DNA of 20,489 nucleotides, taken from a virus. Shown here piece by piece: positions 1,307 through 9,701 of this stretch (the stretch's first letter is position 1; every line of letters begins with the position of its first letter). The stretch spans positions 1-20,489 of the IMG/VR virus record IMGVR_UViG_3300048879_000049; one strand, written 5' to 3'. The position numbers and the translations under genes are program-made. The notes under the pieces are model-generated. The model searched no databases. It saw only the letters and a list, made by a program, of their open reading frames with translations, and was not told the DNA's origin.

Positions 1307-1508
1307 TCTTTAATCCTTGGTGGCTTATGTTACGTCCAGTTTTAAAGGTGAGCCAAGCTGCTCCATCACGAAGAGATATTGATTTATCCGAAACTAGTGT
1401 TTGGATCTTATCAAGTGCCTCTAGTTCTTCTGGAACCTCTTCGAGTTCCTTTGAACCTTCTGTATATGGTCTATAGCCAAATGGCGTTTTACCTAACTTC
1501 GGCCTCAA
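1284..1508 (-). CDS. Small protein between TerS and TerL, serine-recombinase-linker-like
   Basis: This is a 74-aa protein of unknown function. It starts at TTG, not ATG, but AAAGGAGG, an almost complete ribosome binding site, lies 9 bases upstream inside the end of the TerS gene. It overlaps TerS by 20 bases and TerL by 23, so all three are probably translated together. The sequence has TPFGYRPY near the N-terminus (residues 8-15), then an acidic Glu-rich stretch, then a pattern like KSISLRDGAAWLTFKTGR (about 42-59) and an ending IRDRY. That order (PFGYR, then a helix-turn-helix-like part with spaced ILNNRY-type ending) resembles the DNA-binding linker region of large serine recombinases without the catalytic domain. 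This is a resemblance by eye only; a DNA-binding packaging helper is an inference. Confidence 0.75.
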   Translation of the reverse strand: MRPKLGKTPFGYRPYTEGSKELEEVPEELEALDKIQTLVSDKSISLRDGAAWLTFKTGRNISHQGLKNVIRDRY

Positions 1509-1869
1509 TGATTATTTCCTCCTTTGCTGGTAATATAAACACTCCACCTGAAACTGCGTGTTTAACCTCCAATGTATCTTTTTTACCTAACCCTACGCGG
1601 TCTAAGATCGTCTGCGCTGCCTGAATTCTCATACTTGCTTGTGGGATTGGTTCATTAGATTCCATCACATCTACAAGTTTTTGTGCAGCTTGCGGGGCTG
1701 ACTGAGCAAGAATAGTCGAAGCCATCTCTAAAATTTCAGATTTAAGTGCTTTAACTACATGCCAATGAGATGTATATCCTGATAGTTCAGCGGCTTTTCT
1801 AGGATCACCCCCAGTTGCAATTAAGTTTTCAAGGAAATTCTCTTGTTTAGTTGTTAATTGTTTATTCAT
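1489..1869 (-). CDS. Terminase small subunit-like protein (TerS)
   Basis: This 126-aa protein is the probable DNA-recognition subunit of the packaging enzyme. The N-terminus (LTTKQENFLENLIATGGDPRK, then AAELSGY, residues 5-32) is the helix-turn-helix pattern typical of phage small terminase subunits. A middle helical part (residues 44-95, with repeated Ala/Gln/Leu heptads and LDRVGLGKK) would form the oligomerisation core. The C-terminus is GGVFILPAKEE plus an acidic tail. Its place directly upstream of TerL supports the call. No ribosome binding site precedes the ATG; instead a consensus promoter ends 8 bases before it, so the mRNA is predicted to be leaderless or nearly so. The annotation is by pattern and position, not by a database match. 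Confidence 0.82.
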   Translation of the reverse strand: MNKQLTTKQENFLENLIATGGDPRKAAELSGYTSHWHVVKALKSEILEMASTILAQSAPQAAQKLVDVMESNEPIPQASMRIQAAQTILDRVGLGKKDTLEVKHAVSGGVFILPAKEEIIIEAEVR

Positions 1870-1877
1870 ATTATTAC

Positions 1878-1906
1878 ATTATAGGGCTGTATTTCAGGTT
1901 TGTCAA
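1878..1906 (-). promoter_or_regulatory. Consensus sigma-70 promoter for the packaging genes
   Basis: Reading leftward, TTGACA (1906-1901), a 17-base spacer and TATAAT (1883-1878) match the consensus at all 12 positions. The expected transcription start is about 1871, only two bases before the TerS ATG at 1869. Confidence 0.85.
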
Positions 1907-1926: not shown

Positions 1927-1955
1927 TTGACAAGTTCCATATTCAACCCTATAAT
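1927..1955 (+). promoter_or_regulatory. Consensus sigma-70 promoter pointing into the gene-free region
   Basis: TTGACA (1927-1932), a 17-base spacer and TATAAT (1950-1955) match the consensus at all 12 positions. It is the mirror image of the TerS promoter: CTTGACAA and CCCTATAAT here face TTGTCAAG and ATTATAGGG at 1900-1907 and 1878-1886, and both pairs are centred on 1916.5. The expected start is near 1962, at an imperfect palindrome (1962-1980) around ACCCC and GGGGT. No rightward coding region follows until 6996, so the product would be a non-coding or antisense RNA if the promoter is active. Confidence 0.8.
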
Positions 1956-2043: not shown

Positions 2044-2281
2044 TAATTATAGAATTAAACTGGACTGTCCGCATTAAATGAGTTAGATGCAGTACAAGAC
2101 CTCAATATAAAATACCTATAGAAAGAATAAGTGACTACGAGACATTAGCGAAATAAGAGCATCCCAAAAGTATAAGACTATTTTCAAGCCCTATTAGAGA
2201 GCATCTCTAAGCCTCAGATAGTGTGTATCAACTTTACATTTGAAAATGGCTCAAAATGTTTATGATTTAGTATATATGGTG

Positions 2282-2310
2282 GGGAGGGGGGGTGGTCTCC
2301 TGCCCCTCCC
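2282..2310. repeat. GC-only inverted repeat
   Basis: GGGAGGGG (2282-2289) pairs with CCCCTCCC (2303-2310) around a 13-base loop. No T-run follows on either strand, so it does not look like an intrinsic terminator. The loop contains GGTGGTCTC, which occurs again at about 2666-2674 next to a second short hairpin (GAGAC at 2658-2662 with GTCTC at 2670-2674). Confidence 0.6.
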
Positions 2311-2470: not shown

Positions 2471-2552
2471 CATTCTCGAACTGCTAGAACGCTATTAAAT
2501 TTAATAACTTATCCTAAAATAAGCATAGTAAATTCTAGCAGTTGAAAGAATG
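2471..2552. repeat. Nested inverted repeat, possible structured RNA or origin element
   Basis: Outer arms AACTGCTAGAA (2479-2489) and TTCTAGCAGTT (2533-2543) pair perfectly over 11 bases. After a 2/3-base internal loop the pairing continues for 6 more (CATTCT 2471-2476 with AGAATG 2547-2552). The interior holds two further hairpins: the perfect 14-base palindrome TATTAAATTTAATA (2493-2506) and CTTAT/ATAAG (2508-2512 and 2519-2523). The fold is a junction of three stems, unlike a simple terminator. Confidence 0.7.
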
Positions 2553-2731
2553 ACACCGAGCGACACCAATACCGAACGATTCTAAACGACGCACAGGGTC
2601 CGCGCTAAACGGTAGGCAGTAGGTAGGTATAGGGGTGCATTAGATAATGGCATGGCGGAGACTAGGGGTGGTCTCAGGGGTGTATTTTGATGGGGGTTGG
2701 CGAGTATGTTTCGAGTACTCAAATTCTAGAC

Positions 2732-2754
2732 AAAAAAAAGTCCCCGAAGGGACT
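2732..2754 (-). terminator. Intrinsic terminator with UUCG tetraloop, leftward
   Basis: On the - strand the order is AGTCCC, TTCG, GGGACT, then a run of T (2739-2732). The 6-bp stem closed by C(UUCG)G is a classic stable tetraloop. It lies 29 bases past the stop codon of the 188-aa gene and would end the leftward transcripts before the gene-free region, insulating the packaging genes. Confidence 0.9.
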
Positions 2755-2782: not shown

Positions 2783-3349
2783 TTATGAGTTTAATAGTGC
2801 TTTCAGGTCGATTCCAAGTTCGGACGCCATGTCCAAAAATGCATCAAGTTTAGCATCGCGCTCATTATCGACAGCGGTAATTTTTACGCTTGCTGGCTTG
2901 TTCCCAAATCCGTTTGGCTTGAGCACCTTAGCTGCTGCGACCTTATGCTTCGCGGTAGTCTTTTTTGTAGTCTTTTTGGTAGTGTTATCGACCTGTAAAA
3001 ACATAGGATATTTAGTAATATCGACGCCGTCTGCTTTGAAAGCGTAATTGAACTTATCTAATTGAATTAAAGCTTTAAGATTAGCCGGTATTTTTTTAAT
3101 TTTCTTATAGGCTTCAACTTCACCGGCGGTTACCGCGCCATTGTGCAGAGCACTCATGGAGGCTTTAATATTCCCGACAAACTTGTTACGGATTTTAGTC
3201 TTACTTGAGTCAATACCTAGTTCAGCAAGTATTAGATCCGCTAAGTGATAGGATGGCGTCCACAATGCCCTGTGATTAACTACGGAATCGGCGTTTATCG
3301 TTACTTTATCGCCGCGTTTGGTCGTATAAGTTACTGTTTTATTTGACAT
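2783..3349 (-). CDS. Hypothetical Lys/Thr-rich protein, last gene of the left early block
   Basis: I do not recognise this 188-aa protein. Residues 1-120 look like a folded domain with mixed charge. Residues about 122-145 are a low-complexity basic linker (repeats of TTKK, then Ala/Lys), and the C-terminal 40 residues are acidic and helical with ELGIDLKALL near the end. A phrase of the same kind (AELGID) occurs near residue 43, which may mean an internal repeat. The basic linker suggests contact with nucleic acid, by inference only. The ribosome binding site is weak (GAGG about 12 bases upstream). Two promoters lie upstream (3434 and 3610) and a terminator lies directly downstream, so it may be an independently expressed unit. 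Confidence 0.8.
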   Translation of the reverse strand: MSNKTVTYTTKRGDKVTINADSVVNHRALWTPSYHLADLILAELGIDSSKTKIRNKFVGNIKASMSALHNGAVTAGEVEAYKKIKKIPANLKALIQLDKFNYAFKADGVDITKYPMFLQVDNTTKKTTKKTTAKHKVAAAKVLKPNGFGNKPASVKITAVDNERDAKLDAFLDMASELGIDLKALLNS

Positions 3350-3405
3350 TTCGGGTAATAACCTCGTTTTAGATTAAGAATCGACGGAACCCCGCCAGAA
3401 ACCGA

Positions 3406-3434
3406 ACATTAATTCATTCGACAGGCATTGTCAA
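3406..3434 (-). promoter_or_regulatory. Sigma-70-type promoter upstream of the 188-aa gene
   Basis: Leftward TTGACA (3434-3429), a 17-base spacer, and TAATGT (3411-3406). The start would be near 3400, giving a leader of about 50 bases to the ATG at 3349. Confidence 0.65.
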
Positions 3435-3528
3435 ACGTCGCGCTAACTGATTGTTTCTACTGTTATTATTTTCAATGAAACTTAGTCCTATTTATAAAAT
3501 ATAATTAATTATTTAAGTTGGTTATTTA

Positions 3529-3572
3529 GAATATTGGTGAATTTAATTTGGAATATCGGTGAGTTTAATATA
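3529..3572. repeat. Two 22-bp direct repeats next to a promoter
   Basis: GAATATTGGTGAATTTAAT and GAATATCGGTGAGTTTAAT start at 3529 and 3551, 22 bases apart. They are two helical turns apart and lie just downstream of the -10 box at 3582-3587, so they could be operator sites. A 12-bp palindrome (ATAATTAATTAT, 3501-3512) lies just beyond. The rest of 3350-3648 holds only promoters and AT-rich DNA. Confidence 0.5.
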
Positions 3573-3581
3573 GTAACATGC

Positions 3582-3610
3582 AATATATCTTGACAATTAC
3601 TTGCGGTCAA
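3582..3610 (-). promoter_or_regulatory. Second leftward promoter candidate for the 188-aa gene
   Basis: Leftward TTGACC (3610-3605), a 17-base spacer, and TATATT (3587-3582): ten of twelve consensus positions. Transcripts would carry a leader of about 230 bases that includes the 22-bp repeats. Confidence 0.5.
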
Positions 3611-3648
3611 ACACTAGTACATGTCGGTCATCATATTTATTTTTTTAT

Positions 3649-3738
3649 TTATACATGCTCTAAAAAATAAACTGCACCAATAACAATTGTTAAAAGGATA
3701 ATAAAAGAGTTAAGAGTTTCTTTAGTTTCTTTTTTCAT
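3649..3738 (-). CDS. 29-aa single-span membrane protein
   Basis: This very small gene translates as MKKETKETLNSF followed by a hydrophobic stretch (IILLTIVIGAVYFL, residues 13-26) and EHV. One membrane span with a positively charged N-terminus is clear. Its ATG overlaps the TGA of the upstream 65-aa gene as ATGA, so translation is probably coupled. I do not recognise the protein. Small single-span phage proteins include holin-like, superinfection-exclusion and host-takeover factors; nothing here chooses among them. Confidence 0.65.
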   Translation of the reverse strand: MKKETKETLNSFIILLTIVIGAVYFLEHV

Positions 3739-3932
3739 GATGTACCGTTGACTAGCGTTATTTTACCTGCGTGTTGCAATGCAGCAGCTTTTTCATCAGT
3801 TGTAAGATAGATTAGCGTCGTGTTGTTGCCGACAATATCACCGTTTGCTATCGCGTCGCTATAGCCTGCTTCAATCTGCGCTGTGGTAACGCTTCGCACT
3901 TCCGGGTAGCAGAGATGGTAAATTTTGCCCAT
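3735..3932 (-). CDS. Hypothetical 65-aa protein
   Basis: A small soluble protein without a recognised family. GAGGA lies 9 bases before the ATG. The sequence is rich in Ala and Thr, with a Tyr pair near the N-terminus (IYHLCYPEV) and a middle helix (TAQIEAGYSDAIANGD). Its stop codon is used in an ATGA overlap with the 29-aa membrane protein, suggesting that the two work or are expressed together. A weak extended -10 (TGCTAATAT, leftward, 3977-3969) lies upstream without a clear -35 box. Confidence 0.7.
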   Translation of the reverse strand: MGKIYHLCYPEVRSVTTAQIEAGYSDAIANGDIVGNNTTLIYLTTDEKAAALQHAGKITLVNGTS

Positions 3933-4000
3933 AATCTTAGTCCTCTATTGTTGTTTGACTGGAATTACATATTAGCATAAGAGGTCCGTAATGAATCCTT

Positions 4001-4177
4001 TTATTTACTTTCCTTTTTGTTAGAGTGATATAAGGTTATACGATAATTGATGTCATTCTCGTCTGTGATTACGATTTCTGTTACTTTGTAGCCTGCATCG
4101 ACACACAATTTCTTATTTGCTTTTACTCTACGCGAACTACGTTTGATATTGGTTACGTTGTGAAGTGATAGGTACAT
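4001..4177 (-). CDS. Hypothetical basic 58-aa protein
   Basis: This gene starts at ATG 4177, three bases after the stop of the upstream gene, and ends at TAA 4001. It has an N-terminal basic half (IKRSSRRVKANKKLCVDAGY) and a C-terminal half with beta-strand-like pattern (KVTEIVITDENDINYRITLY) ending in KKESK. The ribosome binding site is poor (GGGAAAA), so coupling to the upstream gene is likely. No family recognised. Confidence 0.7.
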   Translation of the reverse strand: MYLSLHNVTNIKRSSRRVKANKKLCVDAGYKVTEIVITDENDINYRITLYHSNKKESK

Positions 4178-4180
4178 ATT

Positions 4181-4402
4181 TCATTTTCCCTTGTTTGCGG
4201 TATATGCTTGGTCAGTAAAAATATCTTCAAGGTCATAGTAGCCAGTGAGATGAGGCGATTTCTTTAGGTGGTTTCGGACAGCATTTGCTAAGCCTCGGTT
4301 CGTTCCCTCCCAAAAATATCTATCTTGACCAAATGCCTTACCCTCTACGGCAGCGGCGTCTTGCTGCTCAATGGTAGGTTGACGATACTTCCAGGTTGCC
4401 AT
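4181..4402 (-). CDS. Hypothetical 73-aa protein, first gene behind the 4447-4475 promoter
   Basis: The start at ATG 4402 is chosen because AGGAG lies 7 bases upstream. A longer frame reaching 4456 begins with TTG inside the promoter and could not be translated from it. The protein starts MATWKYRQPTIEQQDAAAVEG and has two aromatic patches (DRYFWEG and GYYDLED). It is probably helical and soluble. No family recognised. Confidence 0.78.
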   Translation of the reverse strand: MATWKYRQPTIEQQDAAAVEGKAFGQDRYFWEGTNRGLANAVRNHLKKSPHLTGYYDLEDIFTDQAYTANKGK

Positions 4403-4446
4403 GATAACTCCTAATATTTTTGCTGGATTTTGTGGGTGAGCGAAAC

Positions 4447-4475
4447 ATCCTAGCAACCGACAGCGTGATTGTCAA
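4447..4475 (-). promoter_or_regulatory. Phage early promoter, extended -10 type (leftward)
   Basis: TTGACA (4475-4470), a 17-base spacer ending in TGC, and TAGGAT (4452-4447), followed by TGTTTCGCTC. It belongs to the family also seen at 5891, 6825, 6913, 8705 and 10905. The start is expected near 4440, 38 bases before the ATG at 4402. Confidence 0.85.
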
Positions 4476-4508
4476 CCGTGAGCACCATGTTATTAAGTTA
4501 TCTTTTTA
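4453..4508. repeat. 56-bp promoter-upstream repeat, copy 1
   Basis: Identical to 5897-5952 except at two positions and in the same orientation. It covers the promoter spacer, the -35 box and about 33 bases upstream, including the conserved block read on the + strand as CCGTGAGCACCATGTTATTAA. Conservation well beyond the -35 box suggests an activator site or an UP element, or a recent duplication. Confidence 0.9.
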
Positions 4509-4691
4509 CTTACTTTTAGGTATAGTATTTTGTTCAAGACTATCAAAATTTTCCTTACATTCTAAGCACATATGATTGAGTTTAGACTTGTAACAGTAGC
4601 CTGATTTCACATACCAGCAACAATATGAAACTCCTAATGGTGCTAAAATATTTTCTGCAGTATTAAAAGTCTTTTGCTTAAGTTGTTTCAT
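4506..4691 (-). CDS. Cysteine-rich 61-aa protein
   Basis: A small protein with five Cys: C24-C25, C33 and a CLEC pair (C42, C45). The Cys spacing could hold a zinc ion, but the pattern does not match a family I know. The N-terminus is basic and helical. It is the last gene of the block that begins at 5818, and the 56-bp repeat starts right after its stop. No good ribosome binding site is seen. Confidence 0.65.
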   Translation of the reverse strand: MKQLKQKTFNTAENILAPLGVSYCCWYVKSGYCYKSKLNHMCLECKENFDSLEQNTIPKSK

Positions 4692-4741
4692 AGTATTAAA
4701 ATATCTTGGATAATAGTGGTTGGTTTAGTTTGCTGTAACAT

Positions 4742-5014
4742 TTAACAACTCTCTATTTTTGGTAATTTAATTTTAACTATTTCATACGCCGACCAAACAT
4801 CTTTACTTTCCGAATGTATTACTTTGTTACCTTCTATTGTTGCATAGCTTTCCCATTTCCAACCAAGGGAATCTTCCCAATCATCATTTAATCTTATGTT
4901 CATAGCACCAATCGCATCTTGTTCGCTATCAAACATACCAATACATTCCCACTCCTCATAATTAAGGGATGACATTATGCAATTAGCATAGCTCAGTAAA
5001 ATAAATTGATTCAT
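4742..5014 (-). CDS. Hypothetical 90-aa protein
   Basis: AAGGATTAATAG precedes the ATG, the same leader seen for the next gene at 5320 and for TerL. The protein is acidic with many Trp (WEC, DDWEDSLGWKWESY) and an ending KIKLPKIESC. The phrase EWECIGMFDSEQDAIGAMNIRL looks like a small alpha/beta fold. No family recognised. It lies between the paralogous 97-aa gene and the Cys-rich gene in one operon. Confidence 0.72.
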   Translation of the reverse strand: MNQFILLSYANCIMSSLNYEEWECIGMFDSEQDAIGAMNIRLNDDWEDSLGWKWESYATIEGNKVIHSESKDVWSAYEIVKIKLPKIESC

Positions 5015-5026
5015 TCTATTAATCCT

Positions 5027-5320
5027 TTATGCAAATTTCATATCAAAACTTGGGGGTTTACAGTATAAATTTTTATATCTAGTAGGGTTAAAACCGGAAC
5101 CTACAATCGGCAAACTTTTAATCTCTAATAAAATAACATCTACAGTTTCAGGTGTACAGTACCCTGTGACCGAAGTAACCGTATCATATTCTAATAGTGT
5201 CACTTCAAATACCCCGTCATGGTGAGGCTCCTTGACGACACTAGCACTATATCCGTTATCGAATGTGTATATTTCGTGCCACGATAGCAGCGAACTATCA
5301 TTAATTATTTCAACATTCAT
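5027..5320 (-). CDS. NGY-ASV-K family protein, paralogue of the gene at 8424
   Basis: This 97-aa protein contains TFDNGYSASVVK (residues 19-30), then FEVTLLEYDT, a Thr/Val-rich strand, GYCTPETVDVILLEIKSLP and a short tail. The same order appears in the rightward 94-aa protein (FNNGYGASVIK, LWELAILD, GYLTDDKVKETLNKIKKF), so the two are homologous. I believe similar proteins with the NGYGASV core are common in phages, but I know no function. AAGGATTAATAA precedes the ATG. It is the third gene behind the promoter at 5891-5919. Confidence 0.8.
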   Translation of the reverse strand: MNVEIINDSSLLSWHEIYTFDNGYSASVVKEPHHDGVFEVTLLEYDTVTSVTGYCTPETVDVILLEIKSLPIVGSGFNPTRYKNLYCKPPSFDMKFA

Positions 5321-5336
5321 TTTATTAATCCTTTAT

Positions 5337-5615
5337 TTAAGGCCACGTTCGATGAACTTCGGCCACCCATTCAGCCCCATCGTACTCCTCAATAGTATAC
5401 TCTACATCGTCCGGGATTTCGATAACCTTTAGTTTCGCATGTTCACCATTGGCTCTACTACCTAGTTTTTCTACCACTTCAATTAACTTTAAGCTATCTC
5501 TATTATTCCTGTCGTAAAATGGATTAGCCTTCCGAATTGAGCTTTTTAATTCGATCAACGCCTCTTGAGACAGACCAAACCCGCCATAACAGTTATTGAT
5601 AACTATCTTTTTCAT
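5337..5615 (-). CDS. Conserved phage hypothetical protein (NNCYGGFGLS family)
   Basis: The start at ATG 5615 is chosen because GGAG lies 7 bases upstream, within the end of the preceding gene; a TTG at 5621 is less likely. The 92-aa protein begins MKKIVINNCYGGFGLSQEA and later has RDSLKLIEVVEKLG and LKVIEIPDDVEYTIEEYDG, then EWVAEVHRTWP at the very end. This arrangement is a recurrent small phage protein that I recognise from many tailed phages, always without a known function. It follows the zinc-ribbon gene by two bases. Confidence 0.85.
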   Translation of the reverse strand: MKKIVINNCYGGFGLSQEALIELKSSIRKANPFYDRNNRDSLKLIEVVEKLGSRANGEHAKLKVIEIPDDVEYTIEEYDGAEWVAEVHRTWP

Positions 5616-5617
5616 CT

Positions 5618-5818
5618 TCAATCTCCAAAAACATTATCTTGACATGTCTGACACATGGCAGAAATTTGAAATTCTTTTCTGCTCAATTCATCAGTAAAAT
5701 TATCGGCAGGTTCGCCGCATGTTACACACTGATTGTTATCTTTACATTCAGTATAATTTGTTCCAAACATTTGGGTTGTGAAACTCGAAAGAAAGTTTTC
5801 CATTGCTTTAGTTTTCAT
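5618..5818 (-). CDS. Small phage zinc-ribbon protein
   Basis: A 66-aa protein with two CxxC pairs: C31/C34 (CVTCG) and C56/C59 (CQTCQDNVFG), with FTDELSRKEFQIS between them. This is a widespread phage zinc-ribbon family of unknown function that often begins small-gene operons. A weak GAGAAA lies 6 bases before the ATG. It is the first gene behind the promoter at 5891-5919, with a leader of about 65 bases. Confidence 0.85.
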   Translation of the reverse strand: MKTKAMENFLSSFTTQMFGTNYTECKDNNQCVTCGEPADNFTDELSRKEFQISAMCQTCQDNVFGD

Positions 5819-5890
5819 TTACTTTTTCTCATCAGTTGCTATTAATTTAAAATCTTTATCATCTGTCGAATGAATCCAGCGAAGCGCAAC

Positions 5891-5919
5891 ACCTTAGCAA
5901 ACGACAACGTGATTGTCAA
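5891..5919 (-). promoter_or_regulatory. Phage early promoter, extended -10 type (leftward)
   Basis: TTGACA (5919-5914), a 17-base spacer ending in TTTGC, and TAAGGT (5896-5891), followed by GTTGCGCTTCG. It drives the five genes from 5818 down to 4506. The expected start is near 5884. Confidence 0.82.
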
Positions 5920-5952
5920 CCGTGAGCACCATGTTATTAAGTTATCTTTTTA
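5897..5952. repeat. 56-bp promoter-upstream repeat, copy 2
   Basis: Partner of 4453-4508, with 54 of 56 positions identical by eye. Downstream of the -10 box the two regions diverge, so selection or recent copying acts on the upstream half. Confidence 0.9.
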
Positions 5953-5981
5953 ATTAATTACTGTATATATATCTACCTATT

Positions 5982-6203
5982 CTACATACATAATTTTACT
6001 CGCCCGTCCAAAGCTCTCCGCCATGCTATAATTGTGGCCGCATCATTGATTTGGTCAGCATAATTCCTCCGCCCGTGAATACACTTCGGATTGTTAGGGT
6101 TCGCTTCCATCGCGGCGTGACAATCACTAATGATATATCTAAGGGAGGCATCTGACAGCCGCCAAAAGCTATCATTCTCAAGATATTGTGGCTTCGCTTT
6201 CAT
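5982..6203 (-). CDS. Conserved phage hypothetical protein (FWRLSDASLRYI family)
   Basis: A 73-aa protein with FWRLSDASLRYIISDCHAA (residues 13-31), then NPNNPKC, then NYADQINDAATIIAWRR (about 47-63). I recognise this order from small proteins of many phages, annotated only as hypothetical. GAGGTGG lies just before the ATG. It is the third gene behind the promoter at 6825-6853. Confidence 0.82.
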   Translation of the reverse strand: MKAKPQYLENDSFWRLSDASLRYIISDCHAAMEANPNNPKCIHGRRNYADQINDAATIIAWRRALDGRVKLCM

Positions 6204-6252
6204 TATACCACCTCATTGATTTTTAAAAACTTTAAAGAGATTTTAAAATTTA

Positions 6253-6573
6253 TTAAATACTTACTACTTCTTTAAGTAATTTCCGCGCACCTTTTGTGAT
6301 ACCTAATATCTTGCCAGCATTGAGAATTTTTCTCGCTGCTTTCTTAGGTATATATATTTCTTCGAGCGGTCGAGCGTAGCGCAGAACAGATTCTAATAGG
6401 ACGCGATGAATGCGTATACCGAACCCGCCTATCCTACTATCAATCCAAATTAGTTGTGCATACTTACGACCTAATTTACAAACTAACGTAAGTCTAGAAT
6501 GCCCTTGCTTATCCGCAAACCAAACGACACAAGGTGATTCTAGCTTTTTAATTAGATTTATATATTTACTCAT
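6253..6573 (-). CDS. Hypothetical basic 106-aa protein
   Basis: The start at ATG 6573 follows the stop of the preceding gene by one base, which implies coupled translation. A longer frame to 6678 would add a hydrophobic stretch, but that lies over the coding part of the previous gene and has no ribosome binding site. The protein has SPCVVWFADKQGHSRLTLVCK, then RKYAQLIWIDSRIGG, and a strongly basic helical C-terminus (PKKAARKILNAGKILGITKG). The basic tail suggests nucleic-acid binding, by inference. Confidence 0.7.
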   Translation of the reverse strand: MSKYINLIKKLESPCVVWFADKQGHSRLTLVCKLGRKYAQLIWIDSRIGGFGIRIHRVLLESVLRYARPLEEIYIPKKAARKILNAGKILGITKGARKLLKEVVSI

Positions 6574-6574
6574 C

Positions 6575-6781
6575 TTACTTAACCCTAGCAATTTTGCCAT
6601 CTTGCATTGTAACCTTAGCGAAAAACTCGCGGCCAATACCAGTAATATGAGGACGATTAGCCCCAAATAACATCCCATTTAAAACATATTCCTCACCAAA
6701 TACAGAAGTCTCTATATAATTCAGAGGGTTGCCAATGTTTTCCTTGAGTACCTTTTTGCTCGGATAATTAAAGACAATCAT
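6575..6781 (-). CDS. Conserved phage hypothetical protein (FNYPSKKVLKE family)
   Basis: The start at ATG 6781 is chosen for GGAG nine bases upstream and because the longer frame to 6859 reads through the promoter. The 68-aa protein begins MIVFNYPSKKVLKENIGNPL and ends GREFFAKVTMQDGKIARVK. I recall very similar proteins in marine phages near the replication genes, none with a function. It is the first leftward gene from the divergent control region at 6825-6941, so probably among the earliest expressed. Confidence 0.85.
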   Translation of the reverse strand: MIVFNYPSKKVLKENIGNPLNYIETSVFGEEYVLNGMLFGANRPHITGIGREFFAKVTMQDGKIARVK

Positions 6782-6995: not shown

Positions 6996-7259
6996 ATGAA
7001 AAATTTCGTCGCACAAGCCAGCCGAAAACTGGGTAAAAAGCGGATGAAATACGTTGAATTTATTGAGGTCGATTTTGGTGTGGATACAGTCTTTATAGTT
7101 GGTCTGAACCAAGGCTACCACAACGAAGGTTATGGTGAGACAATGTGGCAGTTTGGCGCTCACTGTTTAAAAACTTATGGTGGAGACATGACCACGCAGC
7201 AAATGTGGGATGACCTTATATTCTTTTTTAATGATGTTCAAAAGGTAGAAGTAGCATGA
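6996..7259 (+). CDS. Hypothetical 87-aa protein
   Basis: The start at ATG 6996 has AAGGAG six bases upstream; an in-frame ATG at 6954 lies only about 5 bases past the expected transcription start. The protein begins MKNFVAQASRKLGKKRMKYV, then VDFGVDTVFIVGLNQGYHNEGYG and ends in a helical acidic part (MTTQQMWDDLIFFFNDVQK). No family recognised. The stop overlaps the next start as ATGA, tying it to the GP88-like protein. Confidence 0.78.
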   Translation: MKNFVAQASRKLGKKRMKYVEFIEVDFGVDTVFIVGLNQGYHNEGYGETMWQFGAHCLKTYGGDMTTQQMWDDLIFFFNDVQKVEVA

Positions 7260-8050
7260 AAGTTTCAATTAAAAATTTACCAGTTGCGAACCGTTCGGCT
7301 TTAAATAAAATTAAAAAGGGTTTCGGCTACAGTTTTCAAACTTTGCTGAGTCCACCAGAAGCTAACCCAAAGATTAAAAAGAATAGTAAGGTAGGTGTAT
7401 TGACAGCAGGTATGCATTTATCACCGAGTGATAGTGCTGGTGTCCACTACGGTGAATCTTGGAACGTCTGCCCTAAAGCATCTGACGGTTGCAAGGCAAT
7501 GTGTTTACATACGGCAGGTAATCCAGCATACATGGAAGGTAAGATTCGTGCGAGGCTTGACCGTACTCGGATGTTTTTCCTTAATCGAGATTTGTTTGCT
7601 GCAATATTGGTAAATGAGATTACTTCTCTCCTACGGAAGGCTACCAAGGCGGGTATGCAATGTGGCATTAGGTTAAATGCTACGTCAGATATTTGTTGGG
7701 AGTCGTTTTATATTGACCATCGATTACTTATGAAGATGTTCCCTACCGTAGAGTTTTATGATTATACTGCTATTGCTAACCGAACTACACCAAGCAATTA
7801 TCATTTAACATTCTCGCTAAAAGAAAATAACATGCACGAAGCGATGAATGAATTAAATCGTGGCTCGAATGTTGCAGTAGTTTTTGATACTAAACGTGGT
7901 CAAGAGTTACCAAGTACATACTTAGGATATGATGTTATAAATGGTGATGAGCACGACTTCAGGCCACTAGATGCTAAAGATTCTATTGTCGGACTTAGAG
8001 CTAAAGGTAAGGCAATCTATGATGTTTCAGGGTTTGTTCAAGGAGTTTGA
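7256..8050 (+). CDS. GP88/DUF7227-like phage protein of unknown function
   Basis: This 264-aa protein has a Cys cluster SWNVCPKASDGCKAMCLHTAGN (C72, C79, C83), an Arg-rich helix, then IRLNATSDICWE (about 138-149), FPTVEFYDYTAIANR, YHLTFSL, and VINGDEHDFRPLD followed by IVGLRAKGKA. I recognise this as the phage family known from mycobacteriophage gp88 and DUF7227-type proteins; the name is from memory. The conserved Cys, Asp, His and Arg residues suggest a metal-dependent enzyme, but no reaction is established. It is coupled to the preceding gene through ATGA and sits early in the right arm, a place typical of host-takeover or nucleotide-modification genes (inference). Confidence 0.8.
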   Translation: MKVSIKNLPVANRSALNKIKKGFGYSFQTLLSPPEANPKIKKNSKVGVLTAGMHLSPSDSAGVHYGESWNVCPKASDGCKAMCLHTAGNPAYMEGKIRARLDRTRMFFLNRDLFAAILVNEITSLLRKATKAGMQCGIRLNATSDICWESFYIDHRLLMKMFPTVEFYDYTAIANRTTPSNYHLTFSLKENNMHEAMNELNRGSNVAVVFDTKRGQELPSTYLGYDVINGDEHDFRPLDAKDSIVGLRAKGKAIYDVSGFVQGV

Positions 8051-8708: not shown

Positions 8709-8733
8709 CAGCGTTTGCGAAATGCGCTAGACT
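8705..8733 (+). promoter_or_regulatory. Phage early promoter (rightward), second block
   Basis: TTGACA (8705-8710), a 17-base spacer and TAGACT (8728-8733), followed by GTTTCGCG. The preceding GATGGGGC also occurs before the promoter at 10905. The expected start is near 8740. Confidence 0.82.
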
Positions 8734-8771
8734 GTTTCGCGTTGATACAAACACCTCTAATGGAGAAGGAT

Positions 8772-9701
8772 ATGTTAACAGCATTAAATGATAATCATGA
8801 AGCAATTCAAGAACTAAGAGACACCGGCTACGGTGAGGCAGATTTTGAAGTTAAGAAGGCAACGGTAGAATTTTCTATACTTGATTCTTTGGGAGCAGTA
8901 CATCACCACTTTCCAAGTAAAGAAGTTTATTATCGAACTGATACTTTAGAGCCTCTAGCAGTTCACGGTCAGCATTATAAACCCTTACAGTACCGTGAAA
9001 TGATTGACAAAACTAGGGATATGATTGAACGCTGTAGCTTAGATGCAACAGGAGTCAAAGAAAATATACAGGTATCACCGAATGGTGGGATGTGTGCAGT
9101 TAATTATACCTTACCTGCCAAAGAATATATAACACCTGATGGTGACAAGGGATGTGTTAAAGTAATGGCACTATCTAGCTTCAACGGGGTTTGGAGCTTT
9201 ATATTATCTTTAGGGTTTCAGCAATGGGCCTGCTTTAATTCTCAAATCTTTATCAGGAACCCTGCCTCAATATATAAGGCTCGACACACTAATAAACTTG
9301 ATATTGAGAAGGGTGTATATGTTCTCGGCAAGGTTGCTAATGTTATTGAAGATGAGATTGAACTTTGGCACGATTGGTATAATACTCCGGTCAATCAGGT
9401 TGAAAGAACTATGATCTTTGCGAAGTGTGCAAATTTCAAGGGTGATTTTAACATGTTACTTCAAGATATGAGATGCTATAATCAGTTAGACCATGCGACT
9501 AACAAAACTCTAGCATACTTAAATGAAGTATATAATACTAACTATGGCCCTCGGATGGGTGACAACCGATGGTCAGTATATAATGCTATCACTGATTGGA
9601 GCACTCACGCCCCATCATCTAGTAAAAATACGATAGCATTGTCACAACGTAGAACTGAAAGAGCTTCAGAAGTAATTAATGAGTATTTACTAGCAGCATA
9701 A
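8772..9701 (+). CDS. DUF932-like phage/plasmid protein
   Basis: The start at ATG 8772 (309 aa) is chosen because GGAG lies 6 bases upstream and the longer frame to 8715 runs into the promoter. The protein has NGGMCAVNYTLPAKEY, ALSSFNGVWSF, a central helix region with VERTMIFAKCANFKGDF, and near the C-terminus RWSVYNAITDWSTHAPSSSKN followed by Arg-rich and RASEVINEYLLAA. The YNAITDWSTH signature and overall length fit the DUF932 family found in phages and plasmids, whose role is unknown. It is the first gene of the second rightward block. Confidence 0.78.
   Translation: MLTALNDNHEAIQELRDTGYGEADFEVKKATVEFSILDSLGAVHHHFPSKEVYYRTDTLEPLAVHGQHYKPLQYREMIDKTRDMIERCSLDATGVKENIQVSPNGGMCAVNYTLPAKEYITPDGDKGCVKVMALSSFNGVWSFILSLGFQQWACFNSQIFIRNPASIYKARHTNKLDIEKGVYVLGKVANVIEDEIELWHDWYNTPVNQVERTMIFAKCANFKGDFNMLLQDMRCYNQLDHATNKTLAYLNEVYNTNYGPRMGDNRWSVYNAITDWSTHAPSSSKNTIALSQRRTERASEVINEYLLAA

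Follow-up and report, generated by a model that had tools for sequence, protein, structure and literature searches.

A conserved promoter, core and repeat module beside terS in HMO-2011-like marine phages as a possible transcription-linked origin, with a lineage-specific inverted repeat in its repeat zone

Origins of the iteron type in plasmids and phages carry repeats about one helical turn apart, beside an AT-rich stretch and promoters, and the primary origin of phage T7 is transcription-primed, with a promoter upstream of an AT-rich non-coding stretch. At the packaging sites of SPP1 (pac) and lambda (cosB), repeated short terminase recognition sites lie near the small-terminase gene. Human mitochondrial CSB II is described in PMC5027508 as a G tract at which transcription ends and replication is primed. 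According to PMC9038755, the HMO-2011-type phages are dominant in the ocean and widely distributed there; the words promoter, intergenic and noncoding do not occur in the main text of that paper. Our search of the open-licence PMC literature recovered no paper on the module set out below, which in HMO-2011-like marine phages has the order terS, back-to-back sigma-70 promoters, core and repeat zone.

The sequence analyzed here (hereinafter the window) is a 20-kb marine phage fragment of 20,489 nucleotides, whose terL is closest to those of the Pelagibacter phages HTVC115P, HTVC103P and HTVC104P (63–64% identity), followed by those of HTVC033P, the roseophages and HMO-2011. Its replisome genes code for DnaB_C/Toprim, DNA_pol_A and gp2.5-like SSB proteins; a GP88-family protein (PF17338, phrog_1617) and a DUF932 protein are encoded at 7256–8050 and 8715–9701. 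A 913-bp gap between terS and a gene for a 188-aa protein, both on the minus strand, contains an inverted repeat and a pair of GACACC units, lying 0.2 kb downstream of the far more conserved part of the module. The features of this region are:

1489–1869, minus strand: terminase small subunit gene (terS), by a weak PHROG 51 match and its position beside terL
1878–1906, minus strand: sigma-70 promoter, 12/12 consensus, spacer 17, directed at terS
1927–1955, plus strand: sigma-70 promoter, 12/12 consensus, spacer 17, directed at the core and inverted repeat
2233–2306, plus strand: core, with TTTACA at 2233–2238, TGT at 2257–2259, GTATATAT at 2270–2277, the G tract GGGGAGGGGGGG at 2281–2292, and TGGTCTCCTGCCCC
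2306–2334: three 10-bp repeat copies (CTCCCAAGTC, CTCCGAAGTC, CTCCGAAATC), set 9 and 10 bp apart within the conserved repeat zone
2471–2489: left arm of the inverted repeat, outer 6 bp at 2471–2476 and inner 11 bp at 2479–2489 (AACTGCTAGAA)
2493–2506: 14-bp AT palindrome TATTAAATTTAATA
2508–2523: small hairpin CTTAT-CCTAAA-ATAAG
2533–2552: right arm, 11 bp at 2533–2543 (TTCTAGCAGTT) and 6 bp at 2547–2552
2552–2567: two GACACC units 10 bp apart, beginning an array that extends further in relatives (loci L042 and L047, in 11-bp units)
2739–2754, minus strand: intrinsic terminator of the minus-strand operon
2783–3349, minus strand: gene for a 188-aa protein of no family, adjoining the GACACC array in the window, L042 and L047

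The 188-aa protein belongs to no family in PHROGs or Pfam, gave only a sub-cutoff hit in NCBIfam, has no match among named phages, and yields a low-confidence structure prediction (mean pLDDT 54.9). A minus-strand cassette at 2783–6678, which includes its gene, faces the rightward of the two back-to-back promoters, such that RNA made from this promoter would, if not terminated, be antisense to the cassette; the stretch from the promoter to position 2782 showed no terminator-like site on the plus strand. Being on the plus strand, the same promoter would give a transcript that crosses the inverted repeat and the GACACC site. At the start of this transcript (1962–1990) there is an apparent small hairpin, which by eye occupies the same place in relatives, where its arms differ yet pair. 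A small open frame of ~90 aa sits between promoter and core in L004, L006, L007 and L008, and a small frame in this position is also seen in L011, while the window has none (all by eye). A candidate short coding frame on the plus strand near 2648 was set aside, as it is interrupted in L042 (by eye).

Comparison of the neighborhoods of terS yielded the core as TTKACA, N17/18, TGT, ~10 bases, TATATATA, and a G or C tract, the last usually followed by TGG and CCTGC. A short pattern built from the AT-rich and G-tract part alone, and selecting G-tract cores, retrieved 96 stretches, 95 of which were used as loci (several being the same contigs as earlier loci). Across all 95 (one earlier analysis covered 80 of them), both promoters, at no fewer than 11 of 12 matches, lie within 1 kb upstream of the core in 90 stretches, and a terS match is found on the minus strand 65–938 bp left of the core in 88. 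Of the exceptions, L119 and L131 look like chance core hits, and the other misses begin within about 390 bp of the core. A C-tract pattern retrieved 18 stretches, four of which fall in the HMO-2011-like core family. By hand count of 23 recognized cores, the tract has G on the plus strand in 14 (the window included) and C in six, and is mixed in three. Upstream of the core, a unit containing CCTATTAG occurs in two to five copies 29–30 bp apart in L005, L006, L007 and L008, and once in the window, near 2190.

The zone downstream of the core is characterized by short repeats. We examined autocorrelation and inverted repeats in loci L065–L144 minus L119 and L131, together with the window and 14 terS loci (L145–L159 being left out); the resulting 93 regions were reduced to 75 by removal of exact duplicates and to 47 by clustering and a length filter. 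In these 47 non-redundant loci autocorrelation peaks at lags 9, 10 and 11 (z=15.1, 14.1 and 9.8, respectively) and again at lags 18–20 and 28–29. The upstream side is also periodic (z=11.2 at lag 9 and 10.5 at lag 12), and hence periodicity alone is not specific to the repeat zone. A near-palindromic octamer, CTYTARAG, marks the zone more sharply: in 85 of 106 loci (duplicates removed) its density per kb reaches 7.22 at +60 to +300 from the core; it is 3.18 within the core, 1.64 over the 460 bp preceding the core, and 0.10–0.56 from 300 bp rightward or beyond 500 bp leftward. The octamer is thus at least 12-fold denser just downstream of the core than in bins at least 300 bp away, and it repeats every 9–11 bp. 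Inverted repeats with arms of at least 10 number 64, against 3.9 ± 2.5 in shuffles, and occur in 31 of the 47 loci. Moreover, some units switch between direct and inverted orientation in a sister-clade alignment (AGACT, AGTCT; by eye). We infer that the repeats probably act as sites recognized by sequence, in either orientation, and do not form a conserved RNA fold. Across whole records, periodicity does not single out this zone: the most periodic 300-bp stretch of the record falls in the 700 bp after the core for 13 of 30 records, near-duplicates among them, and elsewhere for the other 17; the window ranks 3 of 404.

In the window itself the zone is weaker, with lag-10 z-scores of 4.2 over 2306–2740 and 3.4 over 2420–2570, and no exact CTYTARAG is present downstream of its core. 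The initial annotation had drawn attention to an outer stem of 6 and 11 bp, a 14-bp AT palindrome, a second small hairpin, and GACACC recurring at 10-base spacing. A base-by-base check bears out the stem, which pairs 2471–2476 with 2547–2552 and 2479–2489 with 2533–2543, the 11 inner pairs being perfect; the palindrome and the small hairpin are likewise present, as is the spacing of GACACC, with two copies in the window, at 2552 and 2562; the G at 2552 belongs both to the first copy and to the outer arm. A perfect 11-bp inverted repeat with a spacer of up to 60 occurs once in the window, against 0.45 times per shuffled window (20 shuffles), so that the 11-bp arms alone are unremarkable, and it is the six added pairs that make the stem unusual. 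From their resemblance to the repeats of the zone, the arms AACTGCTAGAA and TTCTAGCAGTT appear to be two oppositely oriented units of the same type.

Relatives of the inverted repeat were found in two contigs, 3300031886_000017 (L002, L036 and L042) and 3300032138_000023 (L035 and L047). As the latter begins inside the right arm, only L042 carries both arms, and the zone of this site is complete in that one relative. The other matches from two pattern searches (6 of 7 and 3 of 5) are not relative-like in the stretches read, and a nucleotide search of named phages recovered no relative of the site. Two GACACC copies alone would mean little; the repeat is nonetheless real because the array recurs in relatives, with 4.6 copies of an 11-bp GACACC unit in L042 (TRF, period 11) and about five units in L047 (by eye). 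At a comparable place, L003 has 3.1 copies of a different 10-bp unit, GACAGGGCAC, where its contig ends. Thus, the length and unit of the array vary among relatives and its location persists, and the GACACC repeat holds up better across them than the adjoining stem structure. The inverted repeat and the GACACC units are best explained as a lineage-specific component of the repeat zone within a conserved non-coding module, which lies between terS and the next rightward genes.

The module shows both likenesses to and differences from the described systems. Like iteron-type origins, it has repeats at about helical spacing, clear in relatives and weaker in the window, next to an AT-rich stretch and promoters; unlike them, its units are short, near-palindromic and used in both orientations, no initiator gene was identified for it, and DnaA boxes are not clearly enriched (five exact boxes at +60 to +300 over the 85 loci). 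In L010 the ~130 bp following the tract contain, by eye, two exact matches to the DnaA box, TGTGGATAA and TTATGCACA. As in T7, a promoter lies upstream of an AT-rich non-coding stretch, and the window encodes a T7-like primase-helicase, SSB and family A polymerase; however, the promoters of the module are of the host sigma-70 type, and it has a G/C tract and a repeat zone in addition. The G-rich tract GGGGAGGGGGGG, downstream of a promoter and beside AT-rich DNA, resembles that of CSB II. The module differs from CSB II in its host sigma-70 promoters and family A phage polymerase; in addition, 9 of the 23 recognized cores have a C-rich or mixed tract on the strand in question, which counts against a simple G-rich RNA primer. 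This comparison is one of likeness and not a claim of family relationship.

We tentatively favor the possibility that the module is a transcription-linked replication origin, preferring this to a packaging-initiation site, which we consider less likely. Under such an origin, host RNA polymerase starting from the rightward promoter would traverse the AT-rich core and the G/C tract, and transcription through the core would open the duplex and leave a primer, to be used by the window-encoded phage family A DNA polymerase and primase-helicase. In this model a protein of the phage or its host would bind the phased repeats, all presented on one side of the helix, and each perfect 11-bp arm would be a copy of the repeat unit, the two facing opposite ways. 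Consistent with an origin are the position of the module between divergent promoters and the rightward genes, the AT-rich core with its phased repeats, the T7-like replisome genes of the window, and a cumulative GC skew that reaches its minimum at or close to the core in HTVC103P, G004, G005 and G006. Against it, the minimum lies away from the core in the window and in G007. On the coding strand, skew keeps one sign across the left genome arm, the minus-strand cassette to the right of the core, and the right genome arm; as skew follows the gene strand, a skew minimum can be purely transcriptional, and no switch in strand asymmetry independent of gene direction was found at the core. Of the origin proposed in the initial annotation, the part that stands is a circumstantial one, namely an origin-like setting adjoining the conserved promoter-core-repeat module, and neither DnaA boxes nor strand skew lend it support.

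The proximity of terS suits packaging no less well than an origin. The corresponding alternative, which we regard as unlikely, is a pac-like initiation site at which the small terminase would recognize the core and phased repeats, with a headful start nearby and no fixed terminus. Like SPP1 pac and lambda cosB, the module has repeated short sites near terS; unlike them, divergent promoters separate terS from the repeats, and no fixed end is seen. The distance of 65–938 bp from terS to the core in 88 of the 95 stretches is an argument from position, and, with terS also adjoining divergent promoters, such an argument is not specific to packaging. Packaging is favored by a second group of phages, whose terS and terL differ from these: about 200 bp upstream of their terS they carry a conserved element made up of TATATATA with a C-tract and a G-tract. 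Upstream of terS, members of this group (L161, L162, L167, L173, L174 and L175) show the tract GGGGGAGGG, AATTTCTAGC and GTATATATACCCCACCCCC; the near-palindromic GGGGAGGGGTATATATACCCCTCCCC is seen in L171 (441–466). Two circularly closed contigs (with matching ends) open away from the core, as would fit permuted DNA. Within 500 bp of the core, 10 contig ends lie to the right (one being that of the chance hit L131) versus three to the left, a mild excess that the repeats could cause. The ends within 3 kb (from a contig-end list typed by hand), 44 of 73 on the right and 32 of 72 on the left, are spread out and may reflect only the repeats. The packaging site suggested earlier is not supported as far as a fixed virion end is concerned, since contigs run through the site and ends do not pile up at one position; pac-like initiation is still viable, terS being next door.

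It is also conceivable, if unlikely, that the repeats serve transcription control, as operators or as pausing or termination sites for the rightward transcript, and have no direct role in replication. The location of the repeat zone downstream of a near-perfect promoter points this way, as do terminator-like hairpins with T runs between promoter and core in L020, L029 and L003 (by eye). Nevertheless, most of the repeats are 200–700 bp downstream of the promoter, which is unusual for operators, and the core would need another job.

A functional RNA junction, raised earlier as a possible reading of the same shape, or a DNA cruciform at 2471–2552 appears very unlikely. In its favor, the site folds better than shuffled sequence on both strands, with z-scores of about −3.4 to −5.8: for RNA, −4.71 (plus strand) and −5.55 (minus strand) over 2455–2570, and −5.82 and −5.18 over 2471–2556; for DNA, −4.07, −3.35, −5.21 and −4.96. 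In each case, with RNA and DNA parameters and on both strands, none of 200 shuffles folds as well; these z-scores are post hoc, as the site was picked as the best-looking in the 20-kb window. The sole comparative result leaning this way is that 14 of the 17 stem pairs are retained in L042, against 11.6 expected under a random-substitution model (P=0.06): nine are unchanged, three are G-U on the plus strand, two are changed on both sides and still pair, and three are broken. However, the same stem falls from −16.8 kcal/mol in the window to −2.9 in L042. The best fold of L042 uses different pairings and does not stand out from shuffled sequence (z=−1.68 and −1.20). The palindrome has two of seven pairs broken there, and the small hairpin one of five broken and one turned to a wobble, none of them compensated. 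The two sister clades give RNAalifold covariation terms of −0.2 and +1.42, offering no support for covariation, and Rfam has no match in the window at gathering score. The loss of stem energy and pairs in L042 thus leaves the structure reading unsupported, with one complete relative giving little power; by the same token, the compensatory change of the arms sought as a check is upheld neither in L042 nor in the two sister clades.

Most improbable is a mutational accident, for instance by template switching, in which an ancestral imperfect inverted repeat was perfected in the lineage of the window and is functionless itself: the left arm is indeed the diverged one, the right half matching L042 better, and 0.45 such 11-bp repeats are expected per shuffled window, but inverted repeats are strongly enriched in the repeat zone of relatives, which the zone thus favors beyond accident. 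A mobile element with the arms as terminal repeats was rejected, as the 82-bp stretch aligns gap-free in L042; no target duplication is visible around it (by eye).

The components of the module are of known kinds; their combination, fixed beside terS across the group, may be new. A broader proposal, which we hold to be unlikely, is that the whole of this abundant marine phage group shares one origin design, whereby a host-type promoter would lead into a core of TATATATA plus G/C tract, a transcript stopped or trapped at the core would serve as primer for the family A polymerase, and phased repeats downstream would open the duplex. If true, the shared design would parallel, in form, the CSB II priming of mitochondria. 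The inverted repeat itself is of minor interest; the module beside terS offers a defined place for testing where HMO-2011-type phages start replication or packaging.
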